Virus record (IMG/VR): IMGVR_UViG_3300025652_000646
Location: 1 to 21,870 of that record
Direction: 5' to 3' (one strand)
DNA: 21,870 nucleotides
From: a virus
The notes beneath the pieces were generated by a model that was not told the origin of the DNA, made no database searches, and saw only the letters and a list, made by a program, of their open reading frames with translations. Positions within the stretch are counted from its first letter, which is position 1. Each line of letters starts with the position of its first letter. Of this stretch, positions 1,272-20,581 are shown one piece after another. A program made the translations under genes and the position numbers.

Positions 1272-1277
1272 TAACTA

Positions 1278-1308: not shown

Positions 1309-1314
1309 GTATTA

Positions 1315-2328: not shown

Positions 2329-2341
2329 TTTAAATCCTTAC

Positions 2342-6061: not shown

Positions 6062-6070
6062 CGCTCTTCT

Positions 6071-6607
6071 TTAAGGTTCTTTATCATCCGTCTTTTCTTC
6101 TTCGACGCTTGCTTCTTCTGAATCCTTTCTGCTTTCTGCTTGTTCTTCTCGTACAGTGAGGTAGACTCTGTCGAGTCTTGCGATTGTTTCATCATCTATC
6201 TCTTCTTTAGGTATAAATTTAATGGCACCTATCTGCCTGTTAAGGAACACAGGGTTACCGTTAGCATACTTCTGAGTTAGTACATCCAGATACCATTGTA
6301 CTTTTACTTCACCAGCTGAGAGACCCCCTCTTGTTTCAAAGAGTTGTAACATCTCAAAGGTAAAGTACTCAGTCCCAAGTTCTTTTATCAGGTTATTGAT
6401 GTGCTTAGAGGAACTACTATATGTTTTCCAATTAGACACACGCCTATCCTTTCCTTTACTGTACATGTGGAATTGTTTACGTCCAATGTACCGTGTTGGA
6501 TTATCAGGGTGTGTGCATTGTATCATATAGATAAACCCAAAGTACTTATCGAAGTCAAAGGGATCACCAATGTAATCCCAATGCCCTAAGTCCTGCTTAA
6601 TAGTCAT
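6071..6607 (-). CDS. GIY-YIG endonuclease family protein
   Basis: The start is set at ATG 6607 (178 aa) because AAAGGAG lies 9 bases upstream; an ATG at 6664 would give a longer overlap with no SD. Residues 24-29 GFIYMI and 39-46 RYIGRKQF are the GIY and YIG elements. WKTYSSSSKHINNLI (60-74) follows, then a candidate catalytic Glu (E100, GEVKVQW) and a late Asn (FLNRQIG, N123), in the usual family order. The last 25 residues are a Glu/Asp/Lys-rich tail. The protein should cut DNA. It may be a homing-type or host-degrading nuclease; the sequence does not decide. It overlaps the preceding gene by 11 bases and sits between exonuclease and primase-helicase. Confidence 0.75.
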   Translation of the reverse strand: MTIKQDLGHWDYIGDPFDFDKYFGFIYMIQCTHPDNPTRYIGRKQFHMYSKGKDRRVSNWKTYSSSSKHINNLIKELGTEYFTFEMLQLFETRGGLSAGEVKVQWYLDVLTQKYANGNPVFLNRQIGAIKFIPKEEIDDETIARLDRVYLTVREEQAESRKDSEEASVEEEKTDDKEP

Positions 6608-6797
6608 GCTCTTCATCTCCTTTGTACCACATGGATATATAAAAGAACTCTCCATACTCGTCAATCTTTGACTTAGGATAGCCCTGTTCCATATACCATT
6701 TCTTCTTGTCGTCCCATGACATCTTCATGTAACCTTCAGGCACATCCTTAGGGAATCCATAACGCCATCCTTCAGGTGGATCAACTATTAGAGTCAT
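6597..6797 (-). CDS. Conserved small phage protein, 66 aa
   Basis: It starts MTLIVDPPEGWRYGFPKDVP. The DPPxGWRYGFPK pattern is one I recognise from many small phage proteins of unknown role. It is rich in aromatic residues (W, Y, F) and is probably a compact soluble protein. It begins with an ATGA overlap with the exonuclease stop and has GAGG 10 bases upstream. Its end overlaps the GIY-YIG start. No function can be given. Confidence 0.75.
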   Translation of the reverse strand: MTLIVDPPEGWRYGFPKDVPEGYMKMSWDDKKKWYMEQGYPKSKIDEYGEFFYISMWYKGDEEHDY

Positions 6798-7558
6798 CGT
6801 AAGTTACCCTCCCCATAGACTTCTTCGATAGTCATCTCACGAAAGTCATCCCACTTCCTACGCATATAGATTAGGTTGAAGCATAGCTGTAGCTTTTCTT
6901 TCCATTCCCTTGGGTGCTTCTCACGCCATGTCTTACGTACCACATCTAGCATACCTTCCGCTGGCACATCCTTCAGCAACTTCTCTGCTGTCTTAGGACC
7001 TACACCTCTGAGACCTTGGATATTATCTGAGGCATCTCCGGTCAGTAGTTGTTTGCATAGTAGGTAGTGGCCCTGATCTGCATCCGTATGATACAGTGTC
7101 TTCTTGTTGAAGTTGTAGTGCCACCCGGGTACCATGTCAATGTCCTTATCTACGTGAGCTATGACAAAGGAAGTACCCATCTGCTCAGCTTCAGTAGCCC
7201 AGATAGATACCACATCATCTGCCTCACAGTTATCAGACTGAACACAGTTAGTATCCCAACAGTACTGGTACAGGTTAGCTAGTCTATCCTTGACTTGTGG
7301 GTCCATCTCAGTCTTGGTACGTGTAGCCTTGTAATCATCGGTTAAGTCATACCTAAAGTTACCCTTACCCTTGACTGCAACATACCCCTTACGACTACCG
7401 GTGTCCCTCATAACAGCTAGCAAAGCTAGGTCAAAGGTACTGGCAGCTTGTGAGTCTGAGTTAGTAGTGTAAGCAATACGGTATAACATAGAGTCACCGT
7501 CAATGAAACACTTATCAAATTCAAACTCTTCTGTTTCTTTATTAGTGAACGTCAGCAT
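6794..7558 (-). CDS. 5'-3' exonuclease, FEN/Pol I 5'-nuclease family
   Basis: A 254-aa nuclease that probably does the job of T7 gp6: removing RNA primers and degrading host DNA 5' to 3'. Metal-binding acidic residues appear in order: DGD (20-22), CEADD (111-115), HVDKDID (135-141) and TGDASDN (173-179). GLRGVGPKTAEKLL (182-195) is the helix-hairpin-helix DNA-binding element of the family. YKATR (76-80) matches the conserved basic arch motif. SD GGAG lies 6 bases before the ATG, and the start overlaps the end of the DNA polymerase gene by 17 bases. No key residue is missing. Confidence 0.93.
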   Translation of the reverse strand: MLTFTNKETEEFEFDKCFIDGDSMLYRIAYTTNSDSQAASTFDLALLAVMRDTGSRKGYVAVKGKGNFRYDLTDDYKATRTKTEMDPQVKDRLANLYQYCWDTNCVQSDNCEADDVVSIWATEAEQMGTSFVIAHVDKDIDMVPGWHYNFNKKTLYHTDADQGHYLLCKQLLTGDASDNIQGLRGVGPKTAEKLLKDVPAEGMLDVVRKTWREKHPREWKEKLQLCFNLIYMRRKWDDFREMTIEEVYGEGNLR

Positions 7559-9374
7559 AACTATCTCCTATCTCTCCATCACCATCCATACACATTACAC
7601 CAAAAGCTTTAGGTGCTTCTTTAAAAGACTCAACGCAGATTTCTTTTACTCGTTCAGCATCTTTCTCTTTAGATACAAACACTGTCTCATCATGGTAGAA
7701 CAAAGCAGGGTATGCTTGTAAGTTCTCTTCTTTAATCTTACGATGAGCATAAACCAGTGCAGCCTTACAAGTAATACCTTCAAGGGTTTGGAGTAAGTAG
7801 TTAAGTGTCTGGTGTTCAGACCCTACCATAATCCTACGACCATCAGCCCCCATAATAAACCCATGACCAGTCTTCATAAGTGAGTGTCGGTACTCTTCCT
7901 CAAGGTTATCCTTAAGAACCTTAAGTCCCGGTAGGGTAGCCTTGAACTTCTCATCAGCTTCCTTACCAATCTTAGCAGACTTCTTACCAGAGATAGCTTC
8001 ACCTAGCTTAGCATGACCTGCACCAAACAGATAGGCATAGATGAAAGTCTTAGCTCCCGGCCTACTGATACCTAGTACATCTGCATTGCGTTGGTGTACA
8101 TCACCATTGATTACTTCATTGGTAAATGATTCGTCTCCAATGTAATGACATAGACCCCTGAACTGATTACCTGCAGAGTCAGCACCAATAACTTTATTAC
8201 CAGACTCACAGGTTAGTAGGCTTCGTAACTCCTTACCGTATGGTGCATAGACACCCGGTATGTTAACGATAGTACGGTGCCTGCATCGGAAGGATGGGGT
8301 GCCAATGGTGAACATAGAACCATGGAGCCTGCCGTCATTGTAACGTTCAGGGTCTCTGACTTCTTCTATCCAACCTTCTACTGTACCCAAACGATTACGT
8401 AGCATGTAGTAGTCGCTGATAAGTTTACCTAACTCACCTAAAGGTTTCAGGGAAGTGTCAGTTAGCTTAGGGCTTTTGCGTACCCACTTACCTTTGATCT
8501 TCTTAACAGTCCAGTCATCAGGCTTCCACCCTCTGTCCAGCAAGAACTTCTTAACCTCTGCCATCTGACCAATATTAATATCTAGTATATCAATCTTAGT
8601 ATATGGACCTGCAATCATACCTTCAGAAGCTTTTATATCTTCTTCTAGTTTAAACCAATCAGTAATTCTTTTGTAGTAAGACCCATCTTTCTTAGTGATC
8701 TGTTCTACTTCCTTGTCTCCACGCATTACTGTGACCTTACCAAGCTGAGGGTTAATCTCATTCTCGATGTGCTCCATACGATCTATTAGATGCTCGTATA
8801 GTTCTTCAGCTTTCTCCATGTTAAAGACCCAACCTTTCTCTGTGATCTCTGCATTAACCATAGCAAAGTCATGCTCTAACTTTAGAGCCTCTAAGAACTT
8901 AGGGTTTTGTTTCATTAAGATAGACGCTTCCTTAGATACATGTTCGTACACCTTAACATTCAGGTCTACGTCACGTATACAGTAAGTCAACATCTCTTGG
9001 CTGTAGCAAGTCCAGTCTTCATGCTCACCCTTAGGGTACTCAAAGAACCCACCCCAACCTTTCAATCCATGAAGGTGACCTCGTGTATACTTACACAGTT
9101 GAGACATTAGGAAAGTATCCCATACTCGGGTATCCTCTGCAGGTATCCAACCAGTTAGCTTCTTAAGAACAGGCAAGTCAAAGCCTATGATGTTGTGACC
9201 TGCAATAACTTTGGCATTAGACATAAGGTCTAGTCCCTCAGATACATCAGGTAAGTTATCATCGTAGTCAGAGAAGCAATGCTCTTCTTTAGTTTGGACA
9301 TCTATCAAAACAAGACACCAGATCTTGTCAGGGAAGAGGCCATTGGTTTCTATATCAAATACATATTTACTCAT
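7542..9374 (-). CDS. Family A (T7-like) DNA polymerase with 3'-5' exonuclease
   Basis: The replicative polymerase, 610 aa against 704 in T7. The exonuclease domain has FDIET (D7, E9), NIIGFDLP (D66) and YCIRDVD (D135). The polymerase domain has motif A ADSAGNQFRGL (D399), motif B KTFIYAYLFGAG (K442, Y446) and motif C YHDETV (H561-D562-E563). Two oddities are visible. The glutamate that follows the motif A aspartate by five (T7 E480, Klenow E710, the ribonucleotide-excluding steric gate) is Q404. The thumb region (about 210-310) is short, so a T7-style thioredoxin-binding insertion is probably absent. SD GGAG lies 5 bases before the ATG. Confidence 0.95.
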   Translation of the reverse strand: MSKYVFDIETNGLFPDKIWCLVLIDVQTKEEHCFSDYDDNLPDVSEGLDLMSNAKVIAGHNIIGFDLPVLKKLTGWIPAEDTRVWDTFLMSQLCKYTRGHLHGLKGWGGFFEYPKGEHEDWTCYSQEMLTYCIRDVDLNVKVYEHVSKEASILMKQNPKFLEALKLEHDFAMVNAEITEKGWVFNMEKAEELYEHLIDRMEHIENEINPQLGKVTVMRGDKEVEQITKKDGSYYKRITDWFKLEEDIKASEGMIAGPYTKIDILDINIGQMAEVKKFLLDRGWKPDDWTVKKIKGKWVRKSPKLTDTSLKPLGELGKLISDYYMLRNRLGTVEGWIEEVRDPERYNDGRLHGSMFTIGTPSFRCRHRTIVNIPGVYAPYGKELRSLLTCESGNKVIGADSAGNQFRGLCHYIGDESFTNEVINGDVHQRNADVLGISRPGAKTFIYAYLFGAGHAKLGEAISGKKSAKIGKEADEKFKATLPGLKVLKDNLEEEYRHSLMKTGHGFIMGADGRRIMVGSEHQTLNYLLQTLEGITCKAALVYAHRKIKEENLQAYPALFYHDETVFVSKEKDAERVKEICVESFKEAPKAFGVMCMDGDGEIGDSYADVH

Positions 9375-9426: not shown

Positions 9427-11280
9427 TTAGTATGTTAGTTCACAGGCTCCGCCTGCACAAGCAGCCTCACCACTGAGGTCTGTCTTGTCTTCTACTTCTT
9501 TCACTTGAGTTAGGTCGATACCAGTAAGCGCACTCTCCATGATGCGGTAACGTTCTTCAGAGATGTCCTCGAAGGGAGCCTGAATGTACGTGCCACCATC
9601 ATAAGGTAGTACAGAGATACCGTTGTAAGTGTATCGGTTCTTCCACATCCACTCACCTACCAGTTCCCACTCATCTTCTTTCAATGAGATAGTACATGAT
9701 ACGTTGTGTGAGTTCTGCCCATCTTGATGACCCGGTGCTACCCACTCAGTGTTGTACCTACGTACTCGATCAAGTAGTTGCAAGGGGCTTTCAGTTCTTA
9801 GGATAGAACCTTCAGGTGCAGCTTGAGGTATTTCAATTACAGCTTGCTCCGCAGGGTTGAAGTACTCGTCTTCCACCAGCTCCGGATGGTGCTCAGCAAA
9901 GTATCCATATAAGGCTTCGTTCTTACCAACACGTTGACGACGAATATAAAAGTCATTATGCCAAGCGTGAATACCAGAACTACTACCAAGGACGCAAGAG
10001 CTTGTACCAGACGGCTTAATGGTAGTTGTCCTTGCTGCAGGATTAATGCCCAACGCATTCGCCACTCTTCGATTCTCTTTATTAACTTCATTAGCTGCTT
10101 CCTCTAAGTCATAGTTAAGTACAGTACCAGACCCAATGCCTGTCATACCTACACCAATCAATGCATCACGTTGACAAGTCTCTTGCCATTCAGGACGTAG
10201 GTAATGGAAGTCAGTATAACCTGCTTGCAATGTACCAATCAATGAGGCAGCTCGTGCTCGCTCATTCAAGTCCTTCTGTGATTCAATGTTAGATGCATTC
10301 AACTCTGTAAGGTTACACATCTGGTATGGACGTAGACCAATCTCACAGCAAGGGTTAGTCCCCCAGTCTTTGTCGTTGGTGAAGTAAAGCCCCGGCTCCC
10401 CAGAGCCCGAGAGTTCCACACGTTCCCATAGTTTATCAAAGGCATCCTTGGTAATCTTATTACGCAGCATCACAGCTGAGTTGTTAGATCTTGCACGTTG
10501 TGGATTCTCTTCCCACCATGAGCCAGCCTTACATGCCAGCATATCATTGTCATCCATAGAGAACAAGGAGATCATAGCAGCTCGACGGATACCACCAGTC
10601 AGTACTGCATCTGCAATGTAACACATCATGTCATGGACTTCTAACGTCCCTAGGTTACGTCCAATAGCTTGGTCTAGTACAGACCGTAGCTTATGTAAGC
10701 AATCCTTAAGGGGCTGTGGACCCGGAGCTTTACCACCAGTAGTGATAAGCATAGCACCCTTAGGTCGGATGTCACGGAAGTCAAACTCTACATCCATGGT
10801 GTTGTTGAAGTATGATTCACATAGCACCTTGATTGCATCAGCCCACCCTTCGATGTTATCTGATACTAAGAACCTACGCTTACGGACCTTAGGCCCTGCT
10901 ACTTCTGGCAGCTTACGTACATGATGACGTTGTACTGAGTACCCCACACCAGTACCACCAAGCAACAGGAACATAGACTCAGCGAAAGCTTCAGGGCTTT
11001 CGATAGGTAAGTATGCACAGTTGTAGATACGGTTAGGGGCTAGCTCAATAGGAGCACCACCGAACTGAAGGGATCTCATGGATGGTAGGATCTTCTTATC
11101 GTATACATACTTGTATGCTTTCTCAATCTCTTTCTTGAACTTAGGATACTTACGTTGGTGCATCTCTTTGTTACGTGTTACTAGTTCATCCCATGTTTCC
11201 CTACGCTCTAGCTCTGGTACATACTTAGCGTACTTAGAAAATACTGTGATGTCTGATAAGATTTTATTTGATGTATTCAT
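9427..11280 (-). CDS. Class II (adenosylcobalamin-dependent) ribonucleotide reductase, monomeric type
   Basis: Makes deoxyribonucleotides using coenzyme B12, with no second subunit. Cysteines match Lactobacillus leichmannii RTPR: C88 (YNCAYLPI) for C119, C311 (NPCCEIGL) for thiyl C408, C322 (MCNL) for C419 at identical spacing, E313 for E410, and a C-terminal CAGGAC (C608, C613) for C731/C736. PSGTSSCVLGSSSG is the family's phosphate-binding loop. At 617 aa it is about 120 shorter than RTPR. Of this, 66 residues are lost between C88 and C311, where the monomeric enzyme carries its effector-binding insertion. The C-terminal cysteine pair would be recharged by a thioredoxin, and a candidate is encoded in the same operon. 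It overlaps the endonuclease VII stop by 4 bases (ATGA). Confidence 0.93.
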   Translation of the reverse strand: MNTSNKILSDITVFSKYAKYVPELERRETWDELVTRNKEMHQRKYPKFKKEIEKAYKYVYDKKILPSMRSLQFGGAPIELAPNRIYNCAYLPIESPEAFAESMFLLLGGTGVGYSVQRHHVRKLPEVAGPKVRKRRFLVSDNIEGWADAIKVLCESYFNNTMDVEFDFRDIRPKGAMLITTGGKAPGPQPLKDCLHKLRSVLDQAIGRNLGTLEVHDMMCYIADAVLTGGIRRAAMISLFSMDDNDMLACKAGSWWEENPQRARSNNSAVMLRNKITKDAFDKLWERVELSGSGEPGLYFTNDKDWGTNPCCEIGLRPYQMCNLTELNASNIESQKDLNERARAASLIGTLQAGYTDFHYLRPEWQETCQRDALIGVGMTGIGSGTVLNYDLEEAANEVNKENRRVANALGINPAARTTTIKPSGTSSCVLGSSSGIHAWHNDFYIRRQRVGKNEALYGYFAEHHPELVEDEYFNPAEQAVIEIPQAAPEGSILRTESPLQLLDRVRRYNTEWVAPGHQDGQNSHNVSCTISLKEDEWELVGEWMWKNRYTYNGISVLPYDGGTYIQAPFEDISEERYRIMESALTGIDLTQVKEVEDKTDLSGEAACAGGACELTY

Positions 11281-11651
11281 TCTCTACCTTTCTTTAAATA
11301 AGTTCTGATTCTATCAAGCGCACCGAAGTCATCCTTCAGCCCACCGAGAGTACGGTTGCAAGAGTGACATAGCCACCCTCTAAATTTACTAGTTAAGTGG
11401 TCATGGTCTAGTGCCCATGGGGATTTGTTAGTGCCACCACATCCCGCAGCTTCTTCTGCATTACGTAAACAGATAGGGCATTGGTAGTCGTCATCAGGGT
11501 AGTCCACTTCTACTCGTAGCTTTTGACGTACTTTAGCTACAGACCTAACGCATAGTTTACAGGTTGTCTTACGGTACCCACGACCGCTCTCCATTGAAAA
11601 CTCTTCTACGTTTTTCTTTACGCCACACTTGTTACATATTTTGTATTCCAT
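11277..11651 (-). CDS. Recombination endonuclease VII-like protein
   Basis: The 124-aa protein contains ALDHDH (80-85), RGWLCHSCN (91-99) and LGGLKDD, the signature of the T4 endonuclease VII (gp49) His-Me nuclease family, which resolves Holliday junctions and branched DNA. Zinc ligands C58-x2-C61 and C95-x2-C98 flank the DHDH site, as in T4. A second Cys4 cluster (C6, C9, C31, C34) at the N-terminus probably forms an extra zinc ribbon. No T7 gp3-type resolvase is present in the window, so this may fill that role before packaging. A free-standing HNH homing enzyme is the main alternative. SD AGAGGA lies 6 bases before the ATG. Confidence 0.85.
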   Translation of the reverse strand: MEYKICNKCGVKKNVEEFSMESGRGYRKTTCKLCVRSVAKVRQKLRVEVDYPDDDYQCPICLRNAEEAAGCGGTNKSPWALDHDHLTSKFRGWLCHSCNRTLGGLKDDFGALDRIRTYLKKGRE

Positions 11652-11653
11652 TA

Positions 11654-11824
11654 TCAGTCCTCTATTAGAATGCAGTCTTCTTTAGAGATGAAGTTGATGT
11701 AACCTTCAGGCTCTCTGGACTCGTACTCTGCCCCTGTATCACCAGCAAAGGGTACTAACTCCCCGACTAGGGAGCTGTACCATTTCTTTTCGTCATTACA
11801 TTTTACTATCTTTAGACTTGCCAT
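11654..11824 (-). CDS. Small phage protein, 56 aa
   Basis: The start is set at ATG 11824 (MASLKIVKCNDEKKWYSSL) because AAAGGAG lies 6 bases upstream; a frame from 11920 has no such site and reads through the neighbouring gene. The protein is short and looks like a beta-rich SH3-like fold (WYSSLVGELVPF, EGYINFI), similar in feel to small phage proteins that begin this way. No function recognised. It overlaps the 54-aa gene by 29 bases and ends 3 bases before the endonuclease VII ATG. Confidence 0.65.
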   Translation of the reverse strand: MASLKIVKCNDEKKWYSSLVGELVPFAGDTGAEYESREPEGYINFISKEDCILIED

Positions 11825-11960
11825 TCTTATCTCCTTTCTTTTGGCGAGCCGCAGGCGAGGAGGCATCTTCCGGCTTAGGCTTTCTAAATATATTATCAAA
11901 GTTATTCTCAAAGGTACCACGATCAGACATTGGCCTTGGCTTTGAACCTTTACCGTTCAT
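11796..11960 (-). CDS. Small basic phage protein, 54 aa (MNGKGSKPRP family)
   Basis: A gene too short for usual ORF length cut-offs. It starts MNGKGSKPRPMSDRGTFENN, closely matching a small protein seen in many T7-like and other phages (GKGSKPRP followed by F..N.D.IF). The middle reads FDNIF and the end is Lys/Ser-rich. SD TAGGAG lies 8 bases before the ATG. It overlaps the following 56-aa gene by 29 bases in another frame and begins one base after the stop of the 87-aa gene. The role is unknown; the charge suggests nucleic-acid or protein binding. Confidence 0.75.
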   Translation of the reverse strand: MNGKGSKPRPMSDRGTFENNFDNIFRKPKPEDASSPAARQKKGDKNGKSKDSKM

Positions 11961-11961
11961 A

Positions 11962-12225
11962 TTATTCTCCTAACATATCATCAATTAGAGTTGCGTAACC
12001 TGCAATGTCATGCCAGCTATCAGCATAGTTAGGATCACCGTTAAGGATACGGGCTGTCTTATGTTGTATCATTTCAAGAGATTCTTTCTGTGCTGCAGAT
12101 AATCTTTTCCATCCGGGTGTTGCTTGCATTACAGCTTTAAGTGACTGGCATAAAGTACTTTGCCCTTCGAAGCTACCGTACCTACTGCCTCTTTCCTTTA
12201 GAGTTTTATTAGTTACTAGGTTCAT
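11962..12225 (-). CDS. DUF6378-like conserved phage protein, 87 aa
   Basis: The pattern ERGSRYGSFEGQ (residues 11-22), then QKESLEMIQHKTARILNGD and YADSWHDIAGYATL, is a widespread phage protein family that I recognise as DUF6378. It is all-helical; the conserved E, H and D positions recall MazG-like or dATP-binding folds, but no activity is established. SD AAGGAG lies 6 bases before the ATG. It overlaps the preceding gene by 17 bases. Confidence 0.85.
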   Translation of the reverse strand: MNLVTNKTLKERGSRYGSFEGQSTLCQSLKAVMQATPGWKRLSAAQKESLEMIQHKTARILNGDPNYADSWHDIAGYATLIDDMLGE

Positions 12226-12394
12226 CAGCTGCTCCTTCTAAACCTTGGATACAATCTAACACATAAGCTGCTAGTTGGAATGCTTTGCTTTCTTCGTTGA
12301 CCATCTCCATGTTGTCGGATGAAAAGCTTACGGCTACGTTGGCTTCACCTTCTTCGTTGATAACATCTTTAAGTTTAACAGTATACTCACTCAT
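12209..12394 (-). CDS. Hypothetical acidic protein, 61 aa
   Basis: A small acidic protein (MSEYTVKLKDVINEEGEANV) with a predicted N-terminal beta pair and a C-terminal helix (ESKAFQLAAYVLDCIQ). No family was recognised. The ATG overlaps the stop of the thioredoxin-like gene as TAATG, with GGAGG about 10 bases upstream, which supports coupled translation. Function unknown. Confidence 0.65.
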   Translation of the reverse strand: MSEYTVKLKDVINEEGEANVAVSFSSDNMEMVNEESKAFQLAAYVLDCIQGLEGAADEPSN

Positions 12395-12660
12395 TATTTA
12401 TTTCCTCCAGCGTTAATAAAACCTTTGATCGCACCATCGCTGTGCATAGCACCCCGTAGTACGTCTTGTACTGCATCATCTTTGAGTACAAGGATAGCAG
12501 GGATTGCCCTGATGTCGTACTCTTTGGCTTGTTGCATGCCTTCTTCTGTGCTTGTGTCAACCTCAGTTACTTTGTCGGTTAGCTCAAGGTGTTTGATTCT
12601 GTTTTTCAATTGGCTACAGGCTGGACAATTTGGGCCTGTAAATAGTAGCATGGTTTGCAT
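12394..12660 (-). CDS. Thioredoxin/glutaredoxin-like protein
   Basis: The start is set at ATG 12660 (88 aa, MQTMLLFTGPNCPACSQL) because AAGGAG lies just upstream; a start at 12687 would add nine residues and fall in a palindrome. The redox site is CPAC (C12, C15), and RAIPAILVL carries the cis-proline (P54). It is shorter than E. coli thioredoxin (about 108 aa) and closer to glutaredoxin-sized phage redoxins. It is the first gene of the leftward operon that also encodes RNR, so its likely job is to reduce the RNR C-terminal cysteine pair. A DNA polymerase processivity role as in T7 is less likely, because the polymerase seems to lack the binding insertion. Confidence 0.85.
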   Translation of the reverse strand: MQTMLLFTGPNCPACSQLKNRIKHLELTDKVTEVDTSTEEGMQQAKEYDIRAIPAILVLKDDAVQDVLRGAMHSDGAIKGFINAGGNK

Positions 12661-12672
12661 GTGACTCCTTGC

Positions 12673-12713
12673 GTTGTCGGTTGGCATAAAAATGCCAGTG
12701 AGTGTTGTCGGTT
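12673..12713. repeat. Palindrome flanked by 10-bp direct repeats before the leftward operon
   Basis: GTTGTCGGTT occurs at 12673-12682 and again at 12704-12713. Between them lies the inverted repeat TGGCAT-AAAA-ATGCCA (12682-12697). The element fills the short gap between the terminator at 12721 and the first gene of the replication operon (ATG 12660), where a promoter or operator is expected. Confidence 0.6.
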
Positions 12714-12720
12714 TCGCAAT

Positions 12721-12746
12721 TAAAAAGAGGACCCCGGAGGGCCCTC
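12721..12746 (-). terminator. Intrinsic terminator after the 44-aa membrane protein gene
   Basis: On the - strand, GAGGGCCC, loop TCCG and GGGTCCTC form an 8-bp stem with one G-U pair, followed by TTTTTA. It starts 5 bases past the stop at 12752. Stem and tail are close to the terminator at 1278-1308, so the replication operon is bracketed by two similar terminators. Confidence 0.8.
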
Positions 12747-12751
12747 GTGTG

Positions 12752-12886
12752 TTACATTCTTACAATATATAGTACAGTGTACATTAACAATGAACCTATC
12801 AGGAAACCCTGAAAGAATAGAGCAGCTAGTTCGTAAGCTCTGTACTCATTTAGTTTGTCACGTACTTTATTTATTAAGTCTTTCAT
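12752..12886 (-). CDS. Small membrane protein, 44 aa, possible holin
   Basis: A gene below usual length cut-offs. It begins MKDLINKVRDKLNEYRAYEL, a charged amphipathic helix, followed by one hydrophobic stretch of about 23 residues (about 20-42) and a short basic end (VRM). The ATG overlaps the preceding stop as ATGA, and AAAAGG lies 8 bases upstream. It is the last gene before an intrinsic terminator. A small one-span protein beside a possible small terminase subunit recalls T7 holin gp17.5 next to gp18, so a holin is a fair guess. Another membrane role is equally open. Confidence 0.6.
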   Translation of the reverse strand: MKDLINKVRDKLNEYRAYELAALFFQGFLIGSLLMYTVLYIVRM

Positions 12887-13317
12887 TGCGATAACCTTTT
12901 CATTTCTTCAGCCAGTTCTTCATCTGTTAGATCTGTATAGTCAAAGTTTGTATTGACGTTCTCAGTTCTCTGTAGTTTAGGCTGTTCGTATTCAGCAACA
13001 ATAGAAGCAAGTCGAGATGCCTCTACCATATCGTCAGCTGATATAGCTTTAATCATAGCAAGTTTCATTACAGTTAATCCCTTAGGTATAGAGTCAACGA
13101 GACTATCCGATAAGTTATTTACCAGAGCGAGTACATCTTTCATGTTCTCTTTCATTTCATTGTTACGTATACGTGCCTCATCTGCTTTCTCTTTCATCAT
13201 CGCCATGTGTTCTTTATCATGCCGTGGTTTAAGATTTGCTAACGAGTTGGGGTGTATCTTCTTCTTACCATCAGCTATATCATCTTGAGTGTAAGTCTTT
13301 TCCATTAAGTTCTCCAT
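12883..13317 (-). CDS. Possible small terminase subunit, 144 aa
   Basis: Features that recall phage small terminase subunits are HPNSLANLKP near the N-terminus, a long helical middle (MMKEKADEARIRNNEMKENM), a segment DMVEASRLASIVAEYEQPK like the usual 'helix then GxP' region, and the end DLTDEELAEEMKRL. Together these are suggestive, not decisive. Two starts have SD sites: ATG 13317 (AGAGGA, 8 bases) and ATG 13305 (GGAG, 6 bases; 140 aa). The gene starts right after a candidate phage promoter, and its start codon touches a 10-bp inverted repeat. It forms a two-gene unit with the 44-aa membrane protein. Confidence 0.5.
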   Translation of the reverse strand: MENLMEKTYTQDDIADGKKKIHPNSLANLKPRHDKEHMAMMKEKADEARIRNNEMKENMKDVLALVNNLSDSLVDSIPKGLTVMKLAMIKAISADDMVEASRLASIVAEYEQPKLQRTENVNTNFDYTDLTDEELAEEMKRLSQ

Positions 13318-13353
13318 CTAGGTAATCCTCTATAAGGTACTATATTACCTAGA
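13317..13353. repeat. Perfect 10-bp inverted repeat around promoter/SD of the terminase-like gene
   Basis: TCTAGGTAAT (13317-13326) and ATTACCTAGA (13344-13353) are exact inverted copies separated by 17 bases. The spacer contains most of the 17-base repeated candidate promoter and, in the leftward transcript, the AGAGGA SD. The left arm ends at the first base of the ATG at 13317. In RNA read through from upstream, the SD would sit in the loop of this hairpin. Confidence 0.7.
13328..13344 (-). promoter_or_regulatory. Candidate phage promoter, leftward copy
   Basis: The - strand reads TATAGTACCTTATAGAG. The same 17 bases occur exactly once more, at 21805-21821 on the + strand, also outside genes. 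The TTATAGAGGA end resembles the T7 promoter core (CTATAGGGAGA), so transcription would start near the G of TATAG and run into the terminase-like gene. The assignment rests on the repeat and the resemblance; the phage RNAP consensus is not known. Confidence 0.45.
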
Positions 13354-13394
13354 AGGTTCTTAAGGATAGCTCACAGGCTCTAAGAGCAAAGGTA

Positions 13395-13438
13395 AAGAGA
13401 CCCTATGCATTGGTATTACTTTACACATAGAGTCTCTT
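13395..13438 (-). terminator. Long hairpin after the SSB gene, possible terminator or RNase III site
   Basis: AAGAGACCCTATG (13395-13407) pairs with CATAGAGTCTCTT (13426-13438). In the leftward RNA this is a 13-bp stem with a single G-U pair and an 18-base loop, followed by a weak TTTACCTTT tract. It lies between the SSB stop (13583) and the candidate promoter at 13344. Confidence 0.5.
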
Positions 13439-13582
13439 AGACGGGAATGTATTAGCTTCTATCCCATATATCGAGTAGAAGTAATGCTAGTATTGCAAAT
13501 GGTAGTAGAAGTATGATGATACTTTCTCCAACCTATTCCCTTTGGGTAGTTAGTTTACATATTAAACAGTAAACCATTACCT

Positions 13583-14050
13583 TTAGAACTCAGAGTCATC
13601 AGCCTCTGTACCTTCAATATCAAAGTCAACTGAACCAGTGTACTCAATTAGATTAGTGACTTGAATTGCAGTCATAATAGTTGAGATACCTTGGCGACCA
13701 GCTACATCGTACTCTCTACGATATACTTTGACGTTACCTTTAGAACCATTACCAATCTTGATCTTAGGGTTGATTGGTTGTTTCTGACTATCAACCAGTA
13801 CTACCGGGTCATTTTCTGTACCATCTTTACGCAAAGCTTTACGCTTTAGGTTGACAGCTACACGACTTGGATCATCTTTGACAGGCTTAACAGAACCATA
13901 TCCCTCTAACTCTTCTGCACGATCAGCAGGAGCTACGATCTGACACTCCCATTGGAGAGTACCAAATGGATCAGTAGGGTTTTCAGGATCTACCTTTACG
14001 TAGTTAAGAGTTACGTCACGGATGATTGAAGTTCCAAGAATTGCAGTCAT
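13583..14050 (-). CDS. Single-stranded DNA-binding protein, T7 gp2.5-like
   Basis: A 155-aa protein with an acidic tail ending in phenylalanine (EGTEADDSEF), the hallmark of phage gp2.5-type SSBs whose tail contacts polymerase and helicase. The body is beta-rich and consistent with an OB fold; IKIGNGSKGNVKVYRREYD is typical of phage SSB relatives. It would coat unwound single strands during replication and recombination. AAAAGG lies 8 bases before the ATG. It is separated from the GGCT-like gene by 71 bases and followed by about 265 non-coding bases holding a hairpin and promoter, so it probably ends a transcript. Confidence 0.8.
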   Translation of the reverse strand: MTAILGTSIIRDVTLNYVKVDPENPTDPFGTLQWECQIVAPADRAEELEGYGSVKPVKDDPSRVAVNLKRKALRKDGTENDPVVLVDSQKQPINPKIKIGNGSKGNVKVYRREYDVAGRQGISTIMTAIQVTNLIEYTGSVDFDIEGTEADDSEF

Positions 14051-14121
14051 AATTATTACCTTTTAATTTAGATTAAGTTACGTTGATGCTCTTGCTCTAG
14101 GTATGTTTATGTCCGCTTGGT

Positions 14122-14508
14122 TTAGAGTAAATCTTTTAGCTTGGGCTTGTAACCTTTCCAGTTACCAGACTCTACCAAATCACTATCCGCATAACGATAG
14201 TTCTCAAGGGTGTACATATATGCATCACCATGCGGGGTAGATACTGTGGTTCTATCATAAAAGTTAGTCTCACTCTTACCACTATAACCTTCAAGTCTAT
14301 CAAGACGTTCCATAGTTTTATTGTCAACTTCATACACTTCAGTAAACACATGGGTATGACCTTTACGTACACCGGGGAATGCTCCGAGTGAGAACATCTC
14401 ATAGCCCGGAACCCAATGGGTCCCAAGCTTTTCAGATCCCTCAAGGATTCGGTGATTACCAAACCCCTCTCGGAGTGAACCGTACACTGCTACTTTATTC
14501 ATCGCCAC
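14122..14508 (-). CDS. Gamma-glutamylcyclotransferase-like (GGCT/AIG2 fold) protein
   Basis: The 128-aa protein starts with the family's VAVYGSLREG (residues 7-15), has LDRLEGY with the expected catalytic glutamate (E73), then AYMYTLE (96-102) and the late SGNWKGY. Such enzymes cleave gamma-glutamyl amines to 5-oxoproline, or make or break gamma-glutamylamine bonds. The start is taken as GTG 14508 because GAGG lies 7 bases upstream; ATG 14502 is two codons in. It overlaps the ATP-grasp gene by 14 bases and is the last gene of the amidoligase island. A role in trimming or releasing gamma-glutamyl adducts is inferred. Confidence 0.88.
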   Translation of the reverse strand: MAMNKVAVYGSLREGFGNHRILEGSEKLGTHWVPGYEMFSLGAFPGVRKGHTHVFTEVYEVDNKTMERLDRLEGYSGKSETNFYDRTTVSTPHGDAYMYTLENYRYADSDLVESGNWKGYKPKLKDLL

Positions 14509-15673
14509 TTTCGTACCTCGCTAGGTGTGAAGGGTGAACCCAGAAAGGCAGGGGAAGTTCATCACCATTTTTCCAAGTAGATATTTGAACCCAGTCTGTA
14601 GTTGGGTGCATGGTTTCAATTGTAAATATTCTTCGTCGTCTTTCAGCGTTAGTTGACTCAAGGAATAAGTAATTCAAAGCTTCATTACCTGATCTATCAT
14701 GTAACCAGCTATTAGATAGTTCGTGTATAGCTTCTACATCTAAGCTTAACATAGTGCCATCTTCATAACAACCTTCAACATTAATAGAGACGTACCCTTC
14801 GCTACCTATAGCGTTAGGGGAATCAGATCTACTGTTAGATATTTCTTTATCCCAAGGAGTAACCTGATCACCAGCAAGCAAAGCTTTAAGTGCAGTTTTG
14901 TAGCGTTGCAATGTAGTAGCGCCACTGACAGAGCATGCAGTGTTGACTTCTATTACGGTAGCTTTTTGTCGTCTCTCGTTCCAGATAACATCTGCTGCAC
15001 CGAAGTCTAAGTCCAATGCTTTGACTGCCTTGATACCCTCAAGTAGGACAGACTCATCCGGGTCTAGGTCTTGAACAGTAAATACAAAACCATTACTGTG
15101 GTTACGAACTTGATAGTTTACTTCTTCTGTTCGAGATAAAGGTACACATTTCTTTTGTACAAAGAAAGCTACCCCATCCATTACATGAACACGATACTCA
15201 TCACGCTTCTTAACATACTTAGTGTACAGTAAAGAGCTAGGTAAAGCTTGCGAAGCTATAACGTCATCGTCATAGTTTACAACAGTTAGTCCTTCACCTG
15301 AGTGACCTTGAAGCACAGCACGACATACCACATCGTTACCATCACGATACCACTTAGAAGCTTCAGACTTCTTTGTAGTCCACTCTGGAATACTAACAGG
15401 ATCATCAGGGTTAGCTACGTTGTATTCGCTTATAGCTTGAAAGAACTCGCCCTTATGGGATGCCTTACGTACATTTGCACTCTTATTAATTATTCGAGTA
15501 GAAGGTAAGTGAGACAAGCTTGTAGTAGAGTTACCCCAATTAATAATGGTACGCTCACTGTTGTCTCTTACGTTTGAGCCCTCAAGTTTCATACGTTTGA
15601 AACCAAGGGATGTTGCTAAGGTTGAAGCCGATTCACTACCAGTATTGTAAGGTAGGATTAATGTATTAGACAT
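14495..15673 (-). CDS. ATP-grasp ligase
   Basis: The 392-aa protein has ATP-grasp elements in order: a glycine-rich loop LQGHSGEGLTVV (121-132), TKYVKKRDEYRVHV (151-164) with K152, E159 and R161 as candidate nucleotide contacts, and AADVIW...VIEVN (226-244) with metal ligands D228, E242 and N244. DEYRVHV recalls RimK and D-Ala-D-Ala ligase relatives. These enzymes join a carboxylate to an amine through an acyl-phosphate, usually making peptide-like bonds. About 120 C-terminal residues lie beyond the core and show no known motif. SD GGAG lies 7 bases before the ATG, and the start overlaps the glutamine amidotransferase gene by 8 bases. The substrate is unknown. Confidence 0.88.
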   Translation of the reverse strand: MSNTLILPYNTGSESASTLATSLGFKRMKLEGSNVRDNSERTIINWGNSTTSLSHLPSTRIINKSANVRKASHKGEFFQAISEYNVANPDDPVSIPEWTTKKSEASKWYRDGNDVVCRAVLQGHSGEGLTVVNYDDDVIASQALPSSLLYTKYVKKRDEYRVHVMDGVAFFVQKKCVPLSRTEEVNYQVRNHSNGFVFTVQDLDPDESVLLEGIKAVKALDLDFGAADVIWNERRQKATVIEVNTACSVSGATTLQRYKTALKALLAGDQVTPWDKEISNSRSDSPNAIGSEGYVSINVEGCYEDGTMLSLDVEAIHELSNSWLHDRSGNEALNYLFLESTNAERRRRIFTIETMHPTTDWVQISTWKNGDELPLPFWVHPSHLARYESGDE

Positions 15674-16796
15674 GCGCTTGCTCCGATATAATGTTTACAT
15701 GATTAGTACCTAGCGCTTTATTTACTAGGTCTTCCTTGCCCTTGTTATTCTTATCGTTATCTACTACTTCAATAAGCCAAGGGTCTCTTACTACAATAGT
15801 ATCTACTCCGTTATCTCTTACCATACTTTGAACAAGACCAGTATAATAACCAGCAAGAGAATCGTTTGGCTGAGCGTAGGATTTAACAGATACTTTAGTA
15901 CCTTCAGTCATACAACCATACAGCGTACCTTTAGTTTTAGATTCAAAAGTATCAGGTAGTCCGTGACTATAGAACTCTATGATCTCACCTACCTTTAGCT
16001 TATAGTTGCTCAGTACTGGGTAAGTTTTGTAGTTACTTGCACTAGGGTATGCCCAACTATCATAGGTAGTTTTTGCAACTTTCGGTGCAGGCTTTGGTTG
16101 TAACTTAACTTTACGAAATGCTACTTGACATTCACCTTTTACATCAAAGTCAAAAGACTGGAGGTTACCTGCCTTAAGTTCTGTTATAGTATAGTCAATG
16201 TTGTTACGACTAAGTATAGCTTCCAACAGTAACTCTTCTGACGAGTAGTAGTACACATCACGGGAAGTATTGTGAGCTACATACATAGGACGCTCATCGT
16301 TACGTACAATATAAAACTTACATTCGAAATCATTCCACCAAGTAAGAGCGAAAGCTCCCTTGAGTTTACTGATAACATCTTCAGGGTCTTCAGCTAACCC
16401 CATAGCATACGCAATGTTCTCACTATCCACAGCAAAGTTCTTGTAATCAGGAAGATTACTCTGGGTTGTTAACGTACCATTGTGAGCTAGCGTTACATTA
16501 CCGTATGTAAATGGGTGAGCATTCTGATCATTGATAGCACCTTGAGTAGCGTATCTATTATGACCAAGCAAGAAGTCAGTTACAACTGTACCAGAGATCT
16601 TCTCACCTGCCTTTAGTTGAAGGAAGTCTGTTGAATTTACAGACTTTTTGTATGTCTGAACTACATTATCAGCACCATTGATAGAGACACCAGTACTGTG
16701 AGGACCACGAAGTGCATCCACAAATAACAATTGTTTAAACACTTTGGCATCTACAAAGTTGATACCAGTACCTACTACACCTACTAAACCGCACAT
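15666..16796 (-). CDS. Class II glutamine amidotransferase (Ntn hydrolase)
   Basis: A 376-aa protein whose first ~190 residues form a GATase II domain. C2 directly after Met is the nucleophile; LRGPHSTGV (29-37), GHNRYATQG with R81, NAHPF (92-96), AHNGTL with N106-G107, and D124 match the GlmS/PurF glutamine-binding site. It should release ammonia from glutamine. The remaining ~180 residues resemble neither the GlmS isomerase nor the PurF transferase domain, so the ammonia is probably passed to a partner such as the amidoligases. SD AAAGGA lies 7 bases before the ATG. The start overlaps the first amidoligase gene by 13 bases. Confidence 0.9.
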   Translation of the reverse strand: MCGLVGVVGTGINFVDAKVFKQLLFVDALRGPHSTGVSINGADNVVQTYKKSVNSTDFLQLKAGEKISGTVVTDFLLGHNRYATQGAINDQNAHPFTYGNVTLAHNGTLTTQSNLPDYKNFAVDSENIAYAMGLAEDPEDVISKLKGAFALTWWNDFECKFYIVRNDERPMYVAHNTSRDVYYYSSEELLLEAILSRNNIDYTITELKAGNLQSFDFDVKGECQVAFRKVKLQPKPAPKVAKTTYDSWAYPSASNYKTYPVLSNYKLKVGEIIEFYSHGLPDTFESKTKGTLYGCMTEGTKVSVKSYAQPNDSLAGYYTGLVQSMVRDNGVDTIVVRDPWLIEVVDNDKNNKGKEDLVNKALGTNHVNIISEQAHV

Positions 16797-17689
16797 AATT
16801 TATCCTTTACTTTTTCCAATTGGGAATGACCGTTGTTGTTTCTTTTGATTTCATTGTGATGATAGAGCATCGGGGAGTTATGAATTAGATTCTCTGCAAT
16901 CCAGATGCTTTCATACATTACATCTTCTATCCCTACAAACTGGGAGATGTTAGCATTTACCAGATCTTCACCGAAGATAGCCGACAATACAGCATGAGGA
17001 CCTTGACTGCTCATCATATTAGGGAAGTGAGTGACTGAAGTTCTGGGGTTTATCACATACTCTTTTAGCTTGAGCAGGTGGTTTATCCAGTTAACTAGCA
17101 CATCTTTACTACAAGTACCACGGTGACCTCGGAACTCAAGGGACCCGAAGGTAGACAATGCAGTAAGGTTTAGTGCAGTATACTTAGTCCATCTTCTGTT
17201 GATAAGCTCAGGTCCACCCTCAAGTATATCACACAGCTGACTTACTTGATGCTGTCCACGGTATAATGAGAGAGCATAGATGTTGTCTGCTCTTTCGGTA
17301 CCACATATACTGAAGAGGTAAGGTTCTACGATAGCATACAAGATCAGTAGTTCTTTTACTTGATGCCAAGTCATATCTCTTGCATCTACGTGGACATGAA
17401 CAGATGTACGTAGGGTGTGGACACACTCGGTTTCAAACAGGGTATCCTGAAGGGATGCTAGCCTATTGCATGCAGACAAGCCACCAATAGGACCCTTGAA
17501 TACGTACTCTACACCGTTGTTACGTAGTGACCCATCTCTGGTACACTTCCATCCGTTGATTGATGGTGGGTTTGGTAGGTTCTCTACCTCAACCTCAACA
17601 CCTATCTTGGTATTACTTATTAGGTCACCTAGTCTAACTTGAGGTGCGGCAGGTTCCCTAAGGTTGAACAAAGATTGAATAGTTTCCAC
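16784..17689 (-). CDS. Amidoligase family protein (glutamine synthetase/GCS-like fold)
   Basis: The 301-aa protein has IGVEVEVENL (29-38) with acidic metal ligands, TRDGSL...GVEYVFKGP (50-67), SVHVHVDA (96-103) and KYTALNLTALSTFGSLEFRGHRG (169-191). These are the conserved blocks of the PF12224 amidoligase family, which uses ATP to form amide bonds between carboxyl and amino groups. The start is GTG at 17689, with GGAGGG about 10 bases upstream; no ATG is near. It overlaps the 222-aa gene by 32 bases and the GATase gene by 13. It is only distantly similar to the second amidoligase at 18323-19123, so the two probably act on different substrates or steps. Confidence 0.88.
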   Translation of the reverse strand: METIQSLFNLREPAAPQVRLGDLISNTKIGVEVEVENLPNPPSINGWKCTRDGSLRNNGVEYVFKGPIGGLSACNRLASLQDTLFETECVHTLRTSVHVHVDARDMTWHQVKELLILYAIVEPYLFSICGTERADNIYALSLYRGQHQVSQLCDILEGGPELINRRWTKYTALNLTALSTFGSLEFRGHRGTCSKDVLVNWINHLLKLKEYVINPRTSVTHFPNMMSSQGPHAVLSAIFGEDLVNANISQFVGIEDVMYESIWIAENLIHNSPMLYHHNEIKRNNNGHSQLEKVKDKLCAV

Positions 17690-18326
17690 TTGGAATAACC
17701 CTCCGTATCATTGGAACAATATGTGATAAGTCTTCAGGGATTGTAAGGGCAGTGCCATCATACACACCTACGATGTTTGTTTTATACATAAGCACTGGCT
17801 TATCCACTTCACATGTATTACATACAGCAAAGTAAGGTGACACAGCTCGTGATATAAATTCACCAGACCCTACAGTTTCAACGGCTTCGAAGTAATCTGT
17901 AAAGGTAGGTTCATAGATAGCATCAACAACTGAATCAGTTATGTGCAAACCGTATGGACTTAGCATTTCAAATACGCAGATACTATGAGCTCTCGTATCA
18001 AGCAACGATAACCGTAAGCCTTTCTTCCATTGGCGTACAGCTTTGCGTGATACAAACCATGAATGCTTTTTGTAGTTCACATTACCTAGCGTAGGGAAAT
18101 CAAGACATACTTCAGTTTGTTTATCTTCAAGGTTTATATATCGTAGCTCACCATTACTCTTTCGTATTAGTAAAAGAGCTTCATCATCGTGGCCCATAGT
18201 AACAGACTCAACGAACCCAGTATACCATCCGTCATCATCAACAGTTTTGAATCTCAGATAAGTTCCAGTATACGTGGAGTTTATATCTGAAAGAGTCATT
18301 GCTGCTAAGGTTGGTTCTCTAATCAT
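17658..18326 (-). CDS. Hypothetical protein of the amidoligase island, 222 aa
   Basis: Not recognised. It is soluble, rich in beta-type segments, with a CNTCEVDKPVLMY stretch (one CxxC) in the last third and a basic patch SRKAVRQWKKGLRLSLL near the middle. The start is secure: ATG 18326 has GGAGG 4 bases upstream and overlaps the stop of the second amidoligase as ATGA. It lies between the two amidoligase genes and overlaps the first by 32 bases, so it is almost certainly co-translated with them. It could be an adaptor, a substrate-binding protein or the modified target. None of these is shown by the sequence. Confidence 0.75.
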   Translation of the reverse strand: MIREPTLAAMTLSDINSTYTGTYLRFKTVDDDGWYTGFVESVTMGHDDEALLLIRKSNGELRYINLEDKQTEVCLDFPTLGNVNYKKHSWFVSRKAVRQWKKGLRLSLLDTRAHSICVFEMLSPYGLHITDSVVDAIYEPTFTDYFEAVETVGSGEFISRAVSPYFAVCNTCEVDKPVLMYKTNIVGVYDGTALTIPEDLSHIVPMIRRVIPSGNYSIFVQP

Positions 18327-19123
18327 ACAACCTCCAGACCTAGTTCGTATACTACATCAGTAGCTGATGAAGCATCGCTTCGATTAATGATACGCTTGAC
18401 TTCTTTAGAATCATAAGCTTCCATGAACTCAGGTAACCTATGTAAGTTTGAAGTACACCATAAAGTCCTGTCGTATACCCATGACGTAAGCTCATCAGAG
18501 TTAAGCCAGAAGTTACTAAGGGTACGGTACTCAACACCGTAGTCTTTATGTCGCATTGAACCTGCCTTACCGTACAGCCTACGTCTCTGCTTATCACTAT
18601 CAATAAGGACAGAAGGTATGCCGATAGCATAGTCCATCATCTTGATAAGACTTACATTAGTAAAGTGATCAGGGTCTTGATAACCTACATGAACATGACC
18701 ACCAGCTGTACGTAGGTTAACCTTGTCACCTTTAGGGCGAGGCATAACCTTATTGTCCCAAGCATTCCACTCGGAACTACAACCAAACTCCATGGCATCA
18801 GGACCAAAGCTATCTAGTTCTTGAGTTGTGAACTTGTGGCTTGGTATGATGACAGGTTGTAAGTCATTGTTTTGTAAGATGTTTTTAAGTTCATGCATAA
18901 CATTAGTAATGTTGCATACAAACTCTATCTTACTTTTAGCTGGGTTGATGTTGAACTCAGCGAGTACGTTATCCTCTTGAACACCACCGTCTGTAACAGG
19001 ACGAGGGTACTCTTTACTACCACCAACTCTGCCAATTGCAGATGTGATAGTACCACTCATGTCAGCCACAAAGACCTCAGGGTCTGCACCGACAGTTACG
19101 TTTTCCAACTTGGATAGTTGCAT
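18323..19123 (-). CDS. phiEco32-like COOH-NH2 ligase type 2 (second amidoligase)
   Basis: The 266-aa protein matches the family I know as phage phiEco32-like COOH.NH2 ligase type 2 (PF14395). Visible blocks are VGADPEVFVA (11-20), GGVQEDNVLAEFNINPA (46-62), TAGGHVHVGY (139-148) and RRRLYGKAGSMRHKDYGVEY (180-199). Acidic residues D14, E16, E50, E56 and E198 and histidines H143 and H145 are candidate metal and nucleotide ligands of a glutamine-synthetase-like fold. The start has AGAGG 9 bases upstream and lies 4 bases after the end of the 298-aa gene. The family is known mostly from phages and its substrate has not been established as far as I know. Confidence 0.9.
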   Translation of the reverse strand: MQLSKLENVTVGADPEVFVADMSGTITSAIGRVGGSKEYPRPVTDGGVQEDNVLAEFNINPAKSKIEFVCNITNVMHELKNILQNNDLQPVIIPSHKFTTQELDSFGPDAMEFGCSSEWNAWDNKVMPRPKGDKVNLRTAGGHVHVGYQDPDHFTNVSLIKMMDYAIGIPSVLIDSDKQRRRLYGKAGSMRHKDYGVEYRTLSNFWLNSDELTSWVYDRTLWCTSNLHRLPEFMEAYDSKEVKRIINRSDASSATDVVYELGLEVV

Positions 19124-19127
19124 TGCA

Positions 19128-20024
19128 TTATGCCTCTAGTAGTTTAGCTAATTCTTGTACGTTTACTTCGATACCATGACACCTATGGGAGTACATTGCT
19201 TGATAGATATGATGATGAGTAGATACCTTACGACCGCCATCAACTTCATTGTTATACACAATTACTTGAAGGTTACCTTGCTTACCAGCTCTTGCAGGTT
19301 TCTTACAGAAGAACCTACCCAATGCTTTATCAGAGGACAGAGGATGTCTGCTGTATTTAGATACCTTAGACATTAAAGGTTGGACACCACTGTACAGTTT
19401 CTCATCGTAATCATCACACAACAACCTGTTAAGCATAAGCTTAGCGGACTTAAGGGTGAAGTGTTCAGGATATACGATTGTACTTTCGCTTGAAGAAAGC
19501 ATTGACATCCTGTATGAACCTTCGTTCTCATGGTCATTGAATCTATTTAATGTGAATGCCATTACGAAAGCAGTGTCTGGATGTATACCTTCATCTTCAA
19601 CCAGATCAATCCAGTCTCTTACGATACCCACTTGAAACTGTGGGGCTCTAAGGAGAAACAAGATAGACATAACTCTATCTGCTGGGAAGTTTGCTGATAC
19701 TTTAAACCCATCCTTCATTGCCTGATGGGTTGTTGGTGTCACGGAAAGAACATCTGTCACAAAGCGAAGAGTCATTAGATAGTCCCACCACTTGTAACAG
19801 TCATCCCATGTTATGTTACCATTCATAATGATCTGGTCTATCTGAGCGTTAGCATCGTAGTCCCATTGCCTCTCAAGGAAAGGTAAGTACCGTATGTTTC
19901 TGATACGTATACTATCTTCTTTATCTCTACGGTTTACTGCAGAGTTAACTGCAGCAAAGCATGGCTTGCTCATCATACGAACAATAGTCATGTCAGATTT
20001 TTCTACTTCAAATGAACATCCCAT
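19128..20024 (-). CDS. Hypothetical helical protein of the amidoligase island, 298 aa
   Basis: Not recognised. It appears mostly helical, with many Trp and Tyr residues in the first half (QWDYDANAQIDQIIMNG, WDDCYKWWDYLM) and a basic segment RFFCKKPARAGKQGN near the end, then VSTHHHIYQAMYSHRCHG, a His/Cys cluster that could bind metal. SD AGAGG lies 8 bases before the ATG. It is the first large gene of the island, directly before the phiEco32-like ligase. Co-occurrence in other phage genomes with the ligases would tell if it belongs to the pathway. Confidence 0.75.
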   Translation of the reverse strand: MGCSFEVEKSDMTIVRMMSKPCFAAVNSAVNRRDKEDSIRIRNIRYLPFLERQWDYDANAQIDQIIMNGNITWDDCYKWWDYLMTLRFVTDVLSVTPTTHQAMKDGFKVSANFPADRVMSILFLLRAPQFQVGIVRDWIDLVEDEGIHPDTAFVMAFTLNRFNDHENEGSYRMSMLSSSESTIVYPEHFTLKSAKLMLNRLLCDDYDEKLYSGVQPLMSKVSKYSRHPLSSDKALGRFFCKKPARAGKQGNLQVIVYNNEVDGGRKVSTHHHIYQAMYSHRCHGIEVNVQELAKLLEA

Positions 20025-20540: not shown

Positions 20541-20581
20541 TAAAAGAGGCCCGATAGAACTCCGAAGAGTCCTACCGAGCC
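20541..20581 (-). terminator. Intrinsic terminator with a C(UUCG)G tetraloop
   Basis: On the - strand GGCTCGGTAGGACTC, loop TTCG, and GAGTTCTATCGGGCC form a 15-bp stem with three G-U pairs, then TCTTTTATT. The loop is the extra-stable cUUCGg type. It lies about 12 bases after the stop of the SSB-like gene (20593). Confidence 0.85.

Follow-up and report, generated by a model that had tools for sequence, protein, structure and literature searches.

Ligation of a gamma-glutamyl group and its later release have precedents in the Puu putrescine pathway, in butirosin biosynthesis and in CDP-amidate synthesis. During butirosin side-chain protection, the ATP-grasp enzyme BtrJ is paired with BtrG, an AIG2-like cyclotransferase that removes the protecting gamma-glutamyl group. 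Among phages, an amidoligase cassette was predicted by Iyer et al. in 2009, as described in papers that cite that work, and it is named the 'peptidoglycan modification cassette' of RIO-1-like podoviruses, credited to Iyer et al. and Hardies et al. 2013, with superinfection exclusion as its proposed role (PMC5498523, PMC10580990). In the papers searched we found no experiment on peptidoglycan modification by this cassette. Here we describe such a cassette in IMG/VR record IMGVR_UViG_3300025652_000646, a linear virus record and a marine phage fragment, whose full 21,870 bp we call the window.

Seven leftward open reading frames (ORFs) run head to tail across positions 14122–20024, overlapping by 4–32 nt or separated by 4 nt. 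Read 5′ to 3′ on the minus strand, they encode a 298-residue protein, a COOH-NH2 ligase (after a 4-nt gap), a 222-residue protein (4-nt overlap), an Amidoligase_2 enzyme (32-nt overlap), a class II glutamine amidotransferase (GATase; 13-nt overlap), an ATP-grasp ligase (8-nt overlap) and a GGACT gamma-glutamyl cyclotransferase (14-nt overlap). We propose, with a probability of about one half, that the seven genes form one phage pathway, which first assembles a gamma-glutamyl amide and later trims it. The block joins PF14395 and PF12224 with a class II GATase, an ATP-grasp ligase and a gamma-glutamylcyclotransferase in the same run, and thus belongs to an already known cassette type; it is not new in kind. 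A sequence-only reading had described seven overlapping or nearly touching genes, named the five enzymes and linked them to the amidoligase neighbourhoods of Iyer and Aravind. The ORFs lie as it described, Pfam and PHROGs matches agree with its enzyme calls, and published papers make the same link. New here are the membership of the 222- and 298-residue proteins, the exchange of GGACT for a Peptidase_C26 enzyme (C26), an argument from DNA digests against dense base modification, and doubt over the record of Phage-ZRK32.

Active sites and distribution of the cassette

Residue conservation was counted over 38–57 relatives per enzyme, reduced to 70% identity. The COOH-NH2 ligase retains D14, E16, H143, E198 and R200 in 52/52 relatives and H145 in 51/52, and Amidoligase_2 keeps E32, E34, H98, H100, E185 and R187 in all 55 of its relatives. 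The GATase, which is PurF-like by comparison with the PDB, has R81, N106, G107 and D124 in 55/55 and the C2 nucleophile in 51/55, in keeping with its class II, N-terminal nucleophile assignment. D228, E242 and N244 of the ATP-grasp ligase are kept in 57/57. GGACT preserves Y9-G10 of a YGSL motif, and E73, at the position of the catalytic glutamate, is found in 37/38 relatives; its solved relative 1xhs (6e-17) is YtfP-like. Because catalytic residues are conserved across these non-redundant relatives, the cassette enzymes appear to be real genes with active-looking products. Full alignment gave no sign of the inactive-site substitutions that the sequence-only reading had raised as grounds for doubt.

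The ATP-grasp ligase matches solved RimK alpha-L-glutamate ligases by profile (6e-9), and its best NCBIfam matches are the MptN and RimK models of the same activity. While this is its closest family, the enzyme scores 25.8 bits against a curated RimK cut-off of 143.4 and, as judged from its sequence, is RimK-like, not RimK. Residues ~280–392 form a C-terminal extension that matches nothing. The C-terminal part of the GATase (~200–376), which the sequence-only reading had called a novel domain, has no Pfam match either. Neither for the COOH-NH2 ligase nor for Amidoligase_2 did a sequence search return a credible solved relative, and the glutamate-cysteine ligase-like NCBIfam match of the former falls below cut-off (E 0.022).

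Among 50,697 phage records, the COOH-NH2 ligase occurs in 312 and the ATP-grasp ligase in 308, in nearly the same genera, spanning phiEco32-like, LUZ24-like, PA11/RIO-1-like and crAss-like lineages. Both amidoligases, the GATase and the ATP-grasp ligase are present in all 53 records that we compared, almost always contiguously. UFV-P2 and GAP52 share the window order (COOH-NH2 ligase, unknown protein, amidoligase, GATase, ATP-grasp, GGACT), and rearranged versions occur in RIO-1, PA11, CW02 and a crAss-like Cellulophaga phage. The LUZ24-, phiEco32- and PA11-like cassettes resemble that of the window in their five enzymes, mostly in the same order, and in their place beside replication genes. 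In contrast, the window COOH-NH2 ligase is only 36–45% identical to theirs, the window genes overlap without inserted ORFs, the ATP-grasp ligase carries its extension, and the window phage has a T7-type RNA polymerase and a class II ribonucleotide reductase. At 5.9 kb the cassette fills 27% of the fragment. Related contigs reach 52–54 kb, reducing it to ~11% of a whole genome, and the set is standard in ~310 phage records from several podovirus groups, so that the share, which the sequence-only reading had called large for such a phage, is nothing special.

In ~85,000 cellular genomes the COOH-NH2 ligase was found on only two contigs, making it essentially viral. These two are contigs of metagenome-assembled genomes, 46 and 64 kb long and labelled Patescibacteria and Thaumarchaeota, and are possibly mis-binned phage genomes. 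More than 300 sequenced phages carry these enzymes, including phages of P. aeruginosa, and their product has been an open question since 2009. BASEL-collection phages of E. coli that can infect K-12 once its O-antigen is restored are carriers as well. In LUZ24-like relatives (such as locus L003, 10092–10922), a Band 7/SPFH membrane-associated protein is encoded a few genes upstream of the cassette; none was seen in the window.

Exchange of GGACT and Peptidase_C26

In many relatives a C26 gene adjoins that of the GATase or the COOH-NH2 ligase. The best NCBIfam matches of these proteins are gamma-glutamyl-CDP-amidate hydrolase and the PuuD-like gamma-Glu-GABA hydrolase, and the triad C86/H186/E188 is kept in 31/31. 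Within the 53 cassette-bearing records, GGACT is present in 37 and C26 in 27 (GGACT only, 26; C26 only, 16; both, 11; neither, 0), a complementarity with a Fisher p of 1.2e-6 before any correction for relatedness. Another set, of 20 named records, gave GGACT only in 11, C26 only in 7, both in 2 and neither in 0. Across both sets (37, 23, 13 and 0, respectively), a predicted gamma-glutamyl-removing enzyme is therefore found in 73/73 records.

The two families also occupy the same slot. In the RIO-1-like layout, C26 lies between the 298-residue family and the GATase in eight loci (L053 among them), and GGACT takes this place in RIO-1 itself. Likewise, the slot upstream of the GATase holds C26 in PA11 and GGACT in Vibrio phage 275E43-1. 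The constant presence of one enzyme or the other, together with this swap, points to gamma-glutamyl chemistry that ends in removal of gamma-glutamate, and is good but not final evidence, from gene content, that such a step is obligatory in cassette phages. The earlier call of a gamma-glutamylcyclotransferase-like enzyme was right but had missed its interchangeability with a PuuD-like hydrolase. The exchange gives a testable chemical statement, namely that cassette phages need one gamma-glutamyl-cleaving enzyme.

A candidate pathway and its rivals

Our proposal starts from gene content, gene order, intact active sites and the constant GGACT or C26; from these we infer the reactions and the order in which they would run. 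The COOH-NH2 ligase would use ATP to activate the side-chain carboxylate of glutamate and join it to an amine X, giving gamma-Glu-X. The RimK-like ligase would then attach one amino acid, probably glutamate, through an alpha linkage. Amidoligase_2 would form a second amide, capping a carboxylate with glutamine-derived ammonia from the GATase. Finally, GGACT would take off the gamma-glutamyl group as 5-oxoproline, freeing the product amine, whereas C26 in the relatives would release it as glutamate. The nature of the product and its use are likewise conjectural: it may be a small amidated peptide or peptide tag for host takeover, with a small molecule, a host protein or a wall precursor as candidate targets.

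The Puu pathway offers a parallel, in that PuuA, a gamma-glutamylpolyamine ligase, and the hydrolase PuuD pair a glutamine-synthetase-fold ligase with a gamma-glutamyl-removing enzyme, and the C26 relatives match the PuuD model. Unlike Puu, the cassette adds an ATP-grasp ligase and an amidotransferase, has two ligases, and encodes neither an oxidase nor an aldehyde dehydrogenase among the seven genes; the window also has GGACT, not C26. By description, BtrJ/BtrG is similar in pairing an ATP-grasp ligase with an AIG2-like cyclotransferase, but the cassette lacks an acyl carrier protein and polyketide or aminoglycoside genes. To our knowledge, no protect-and-release pathway of the gamma-glutamyl type has been described in a virus. 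A bolder version of our proposal, which we put forward only tentatively, is a virus-specific biosynthesis that uses a gamma-glutamyl protecting group and an obligatory but interchangeable deprotecting enzyme (GGACT or PuuD-like C26), shared by at least four phage lineages, whose new amidated glutamyl peptide would act in host takeover or against defence.

Several points weigh against a make-and-trim pathway. Sequence gives no more than a hint of gamma-glutamyl specificity in the COOH-NH2 ligase, and we know of no enzyme of this cassette set with a measured activity. Independent switches are few, with five to six changes of GGACT and three of C26 on a concatenated tree of four proteins; a paired test of these switches is underpowered and cannot reach significance, and the second set of 20 records includes close relatives. 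Moreover, C26 shares its fold with class I amidotransferases, to which it is kin, and could supply ammonia rather than remove gamma-glutamate.

Several other targets deserve consideration, and the sequence-only reading had listed the wall or surface, a protein and DNA bases among them. Stem peptides contain gamma-glutamyl and amide linkages, which counts for a wall target, and the cassette isolates encountered infect Gram-negative hosts. In the published version, which later papers (PMC5498523, PMC10580990) attribute to Iyer et al. and Hardies et al., unusual amide linkages on cytoplasmic wall precursors would let the infected cell resist superinfection. This is possible though not probable, given an ATP-grasp ligase that is RimK-like rather than D-Ala-D-Ala-ligase-like, a conserved block with no wall hydrolase, transferase or flippase, and no known experiment. 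A rather unlikely alternative is that the RimK-like ligase and the amidoligases attach a (poly)glutamyl or amidated tag to a protein of host or phage, for instance a subunit of the ribosome or of a polymerase. Its model is RimK, which modifies ribosomal protein S6, and it fits both the RimK relatives found among solved structures and NCBIfam models and the early-region position beside replication genes. However, two more ligases, an amidotransferase and a cyclotransferase exceed the needs of a one-step tag, and the only candidate for a target or recognition domain is an unproven Tudor-like fold in the 222-residue protein. Wall, protein and free small-molecule targets are indistinguishable from sequence and stay on the list of candidates.

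A DNA target fares worse. In this reading the cassette would shield the phage genome from restriction by decorating one of its nucleobases, and cassette-bearing Gordonclarkvirinae have indeed been published as 'remarkably resistant' to restriction-modification with no known modification pathway. The phiEco32 genome has 12 EcoRI, 36 EcoRV, 9 EcoKI and 118 EcoP1I sites; the last three numbers are normal or high though its relatives are reported to be strongly restriction-resistant. In published digests, however, LUZ24-like virion DNA is cut by EcoRI, HindIII, Sau3A and AluI, and phage Delta DNA by BamHI; p2-10_Or1 and PaP3, from the same groups as the digested phages, carry the cassette GGACT. 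Kuraviruses, moreover, have other candidates in a dCTP deaminase, a nucleotidyltransferase and a thymidylate synthase. Because of the digests and these other candidates, dense base modification by the cassette is unlikely, and we hold DNA hypermodification in general to be very improbable.

Auxiliary nitrogen metabolism, in which the genes would aid ammonium or nitrate assimilation by the host, was claimed for Phage-ZRK32, published as a 21.9-kb chronic phage of Planctomycetes; growth effects were reported with its preparations (PMC10945688). The ZRK32 record (OP650935.1, Poriferisphaera phage ZRK32) is partial and UNVERIFIED, and its positions 1–8000 and 9500–17200 are 82–87% identical to the 47.5-kb Pseudomonas fluorescens phage SCYZ1. 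On this comparison, the record most likely represents about half the genome of a LUZ24-like Pseudomonas phage, and its phage and host assignment is therefore in doubt. The unit also lacks a glutamine synthetase and a transporter, and a ligase with two occurrences in cellular genomes is unlike a host-acquired gene. A nitrogen role seems extremely improbable, and this sole published functional claim needs re-examination.

The 222- and 298-residue proteins and genome context

The sequence-only reading left two proteins without a function. No activity can be assigned to them here either, but both turn out to be conserved cassette members, and they can be named as components for any reconstitution. 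Profile searches over ~100 loci found the 222-residue family in 81, between the two amidoligases in most layouts; tblastn had given two weak matches, and relatives needed profile iteration. The crAss-like layout yielded no member of the family, and in most LUZ24-like loci the profiles detected none; in the latter, a ~530-nt gap holds a gene for 180–190 residues, which aligns weakly with the 222-residue protein. By these profiles it is a core cassette member outside the crAss-like group. Its AlphaFold model (pLDDT 93.4) has only weak Tudor/SH3-like small-barrel matches in the N-terminal half (Foldseek E 9e-3 at best; VIA-align Z 6.3, root-mean-square deviation 3.6, 89 residues), which are suggestive of such a barrel at the level of fold only. 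Its likely role is that of a ligase subunit, either as a scaffold or for binding substrate.

Direct tblastn with the 298-residue protein gave no phage match. Clustering groups it with GAP52 gp029 and Kuravirus proteins, and a profile links it to the RIO-1_7 cluster (E 4e-10); this family also stands first in the cassettes of phiEco32-like and RIO-1-like phages. C22 and R126 are invariant. Its AlphaFold model (pLDDT 88) has no credible PDB match by Foldseek or VIA-align, and gyrase-like rows (Z 4.4 over 76 residues) were set aside as lying in the range of common arrangements. A LysW-like carrier role was dropped, both proteins being without a conserved acidic C-terminal tail. There is also no room between the overlapping genes of the window for a precursor of a ribosomally synthesized and post-translationally modified peptide.

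Table 1. Coordinates of the cassette genes and flanking features in the window
Feature	Position	Strand	Best matches and remarks
GGACT/AIG2-like gamma-glutamyl cyclotransferase, 128 residues	14122..14508	-	PF06094 8e-23, over Pfam cut-off; GTG start, ATG two codons further on
RimK-like ATP-grasp ligase, 392 residues	14495..15673	-	phrog_2599 9e-73
Class II glutamine amidotransferase, 376 residues	15666..16796	-	GATase_6 PF13522 8e-15; phrog_4736 2e-79
Amidoligase_2, glutamine-synthetase fold, 301 residues	16784..17689	-	PF12224 6e-6, over cut-off; phrog_7469 9e-54; GTG start
222-residue core protein	17658..18326	-	phrog_11055 8e-14
phiEco32-type COOH-NH2 ligase, glutamine-synthetase fold, 266 residues	18323..19123	-	PF14395 2e-12; phrog_3815 1e-87
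298-residue protein, first gene of cassette	19128..20024	-	Family common to GAP52 gp029, Kuravirus and RIO-1_7
gp2.5-like ssDNA-binding protein	13583..14050	-	phrog_112 1e-7; next downstream, co-directional; context, outside the pathway
Terminator-like stem upstream of cassette	20548..20581	-	15 pairs, T-rich tail; longest stem in region
Terminator-like stem downstream of cassette unit	12727..12746	-	8 pairs, 6 GC

The cassette lies upstream of leftward genes for a T7-type RNA polymerase, primase-helicase, 5′–3′ exonuclease, family A polymerase, class II ribonucleotide reductase, endonuclease VII and a thioredoxin-like protein. It adjoins the early and replication genes (ssDNA-binding protein, ribonucleotide reductase, PolA, primase-helicase), with which it is probably expressed. 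The two terminator-like stems in Table 1 bracket it and have the most GC pairs among such sites, which are no commoner in the region than in shuffled sequence. No PADLOC model was matched by any cassette protein, and Rfam and tRNA scans gave nothing.

The window RNA polymerase is nearest that of Roseobacter phage CRP-7 (37% identity), in which we looked for the COOH-NH2 ligase and did not find it. The class II (B12-dependent) ribonucleotide reductase (9427–11280, minus strand) co-occurs with this T7-type polymerase. The sole large rightward gene (24–1271, plus strand, 415 residues) converges on the rest, has no Pfam or PHROGs match and may mark the border of a block of virion genes. A SegE-like GIY-YIG endonuclease (6071–6664, minus strand), encoded between the genes for the exonuclease and the primase-helicase, is likely a mobile homing gene; its best PHROG is oddly labelled 'NAD synthetase'.

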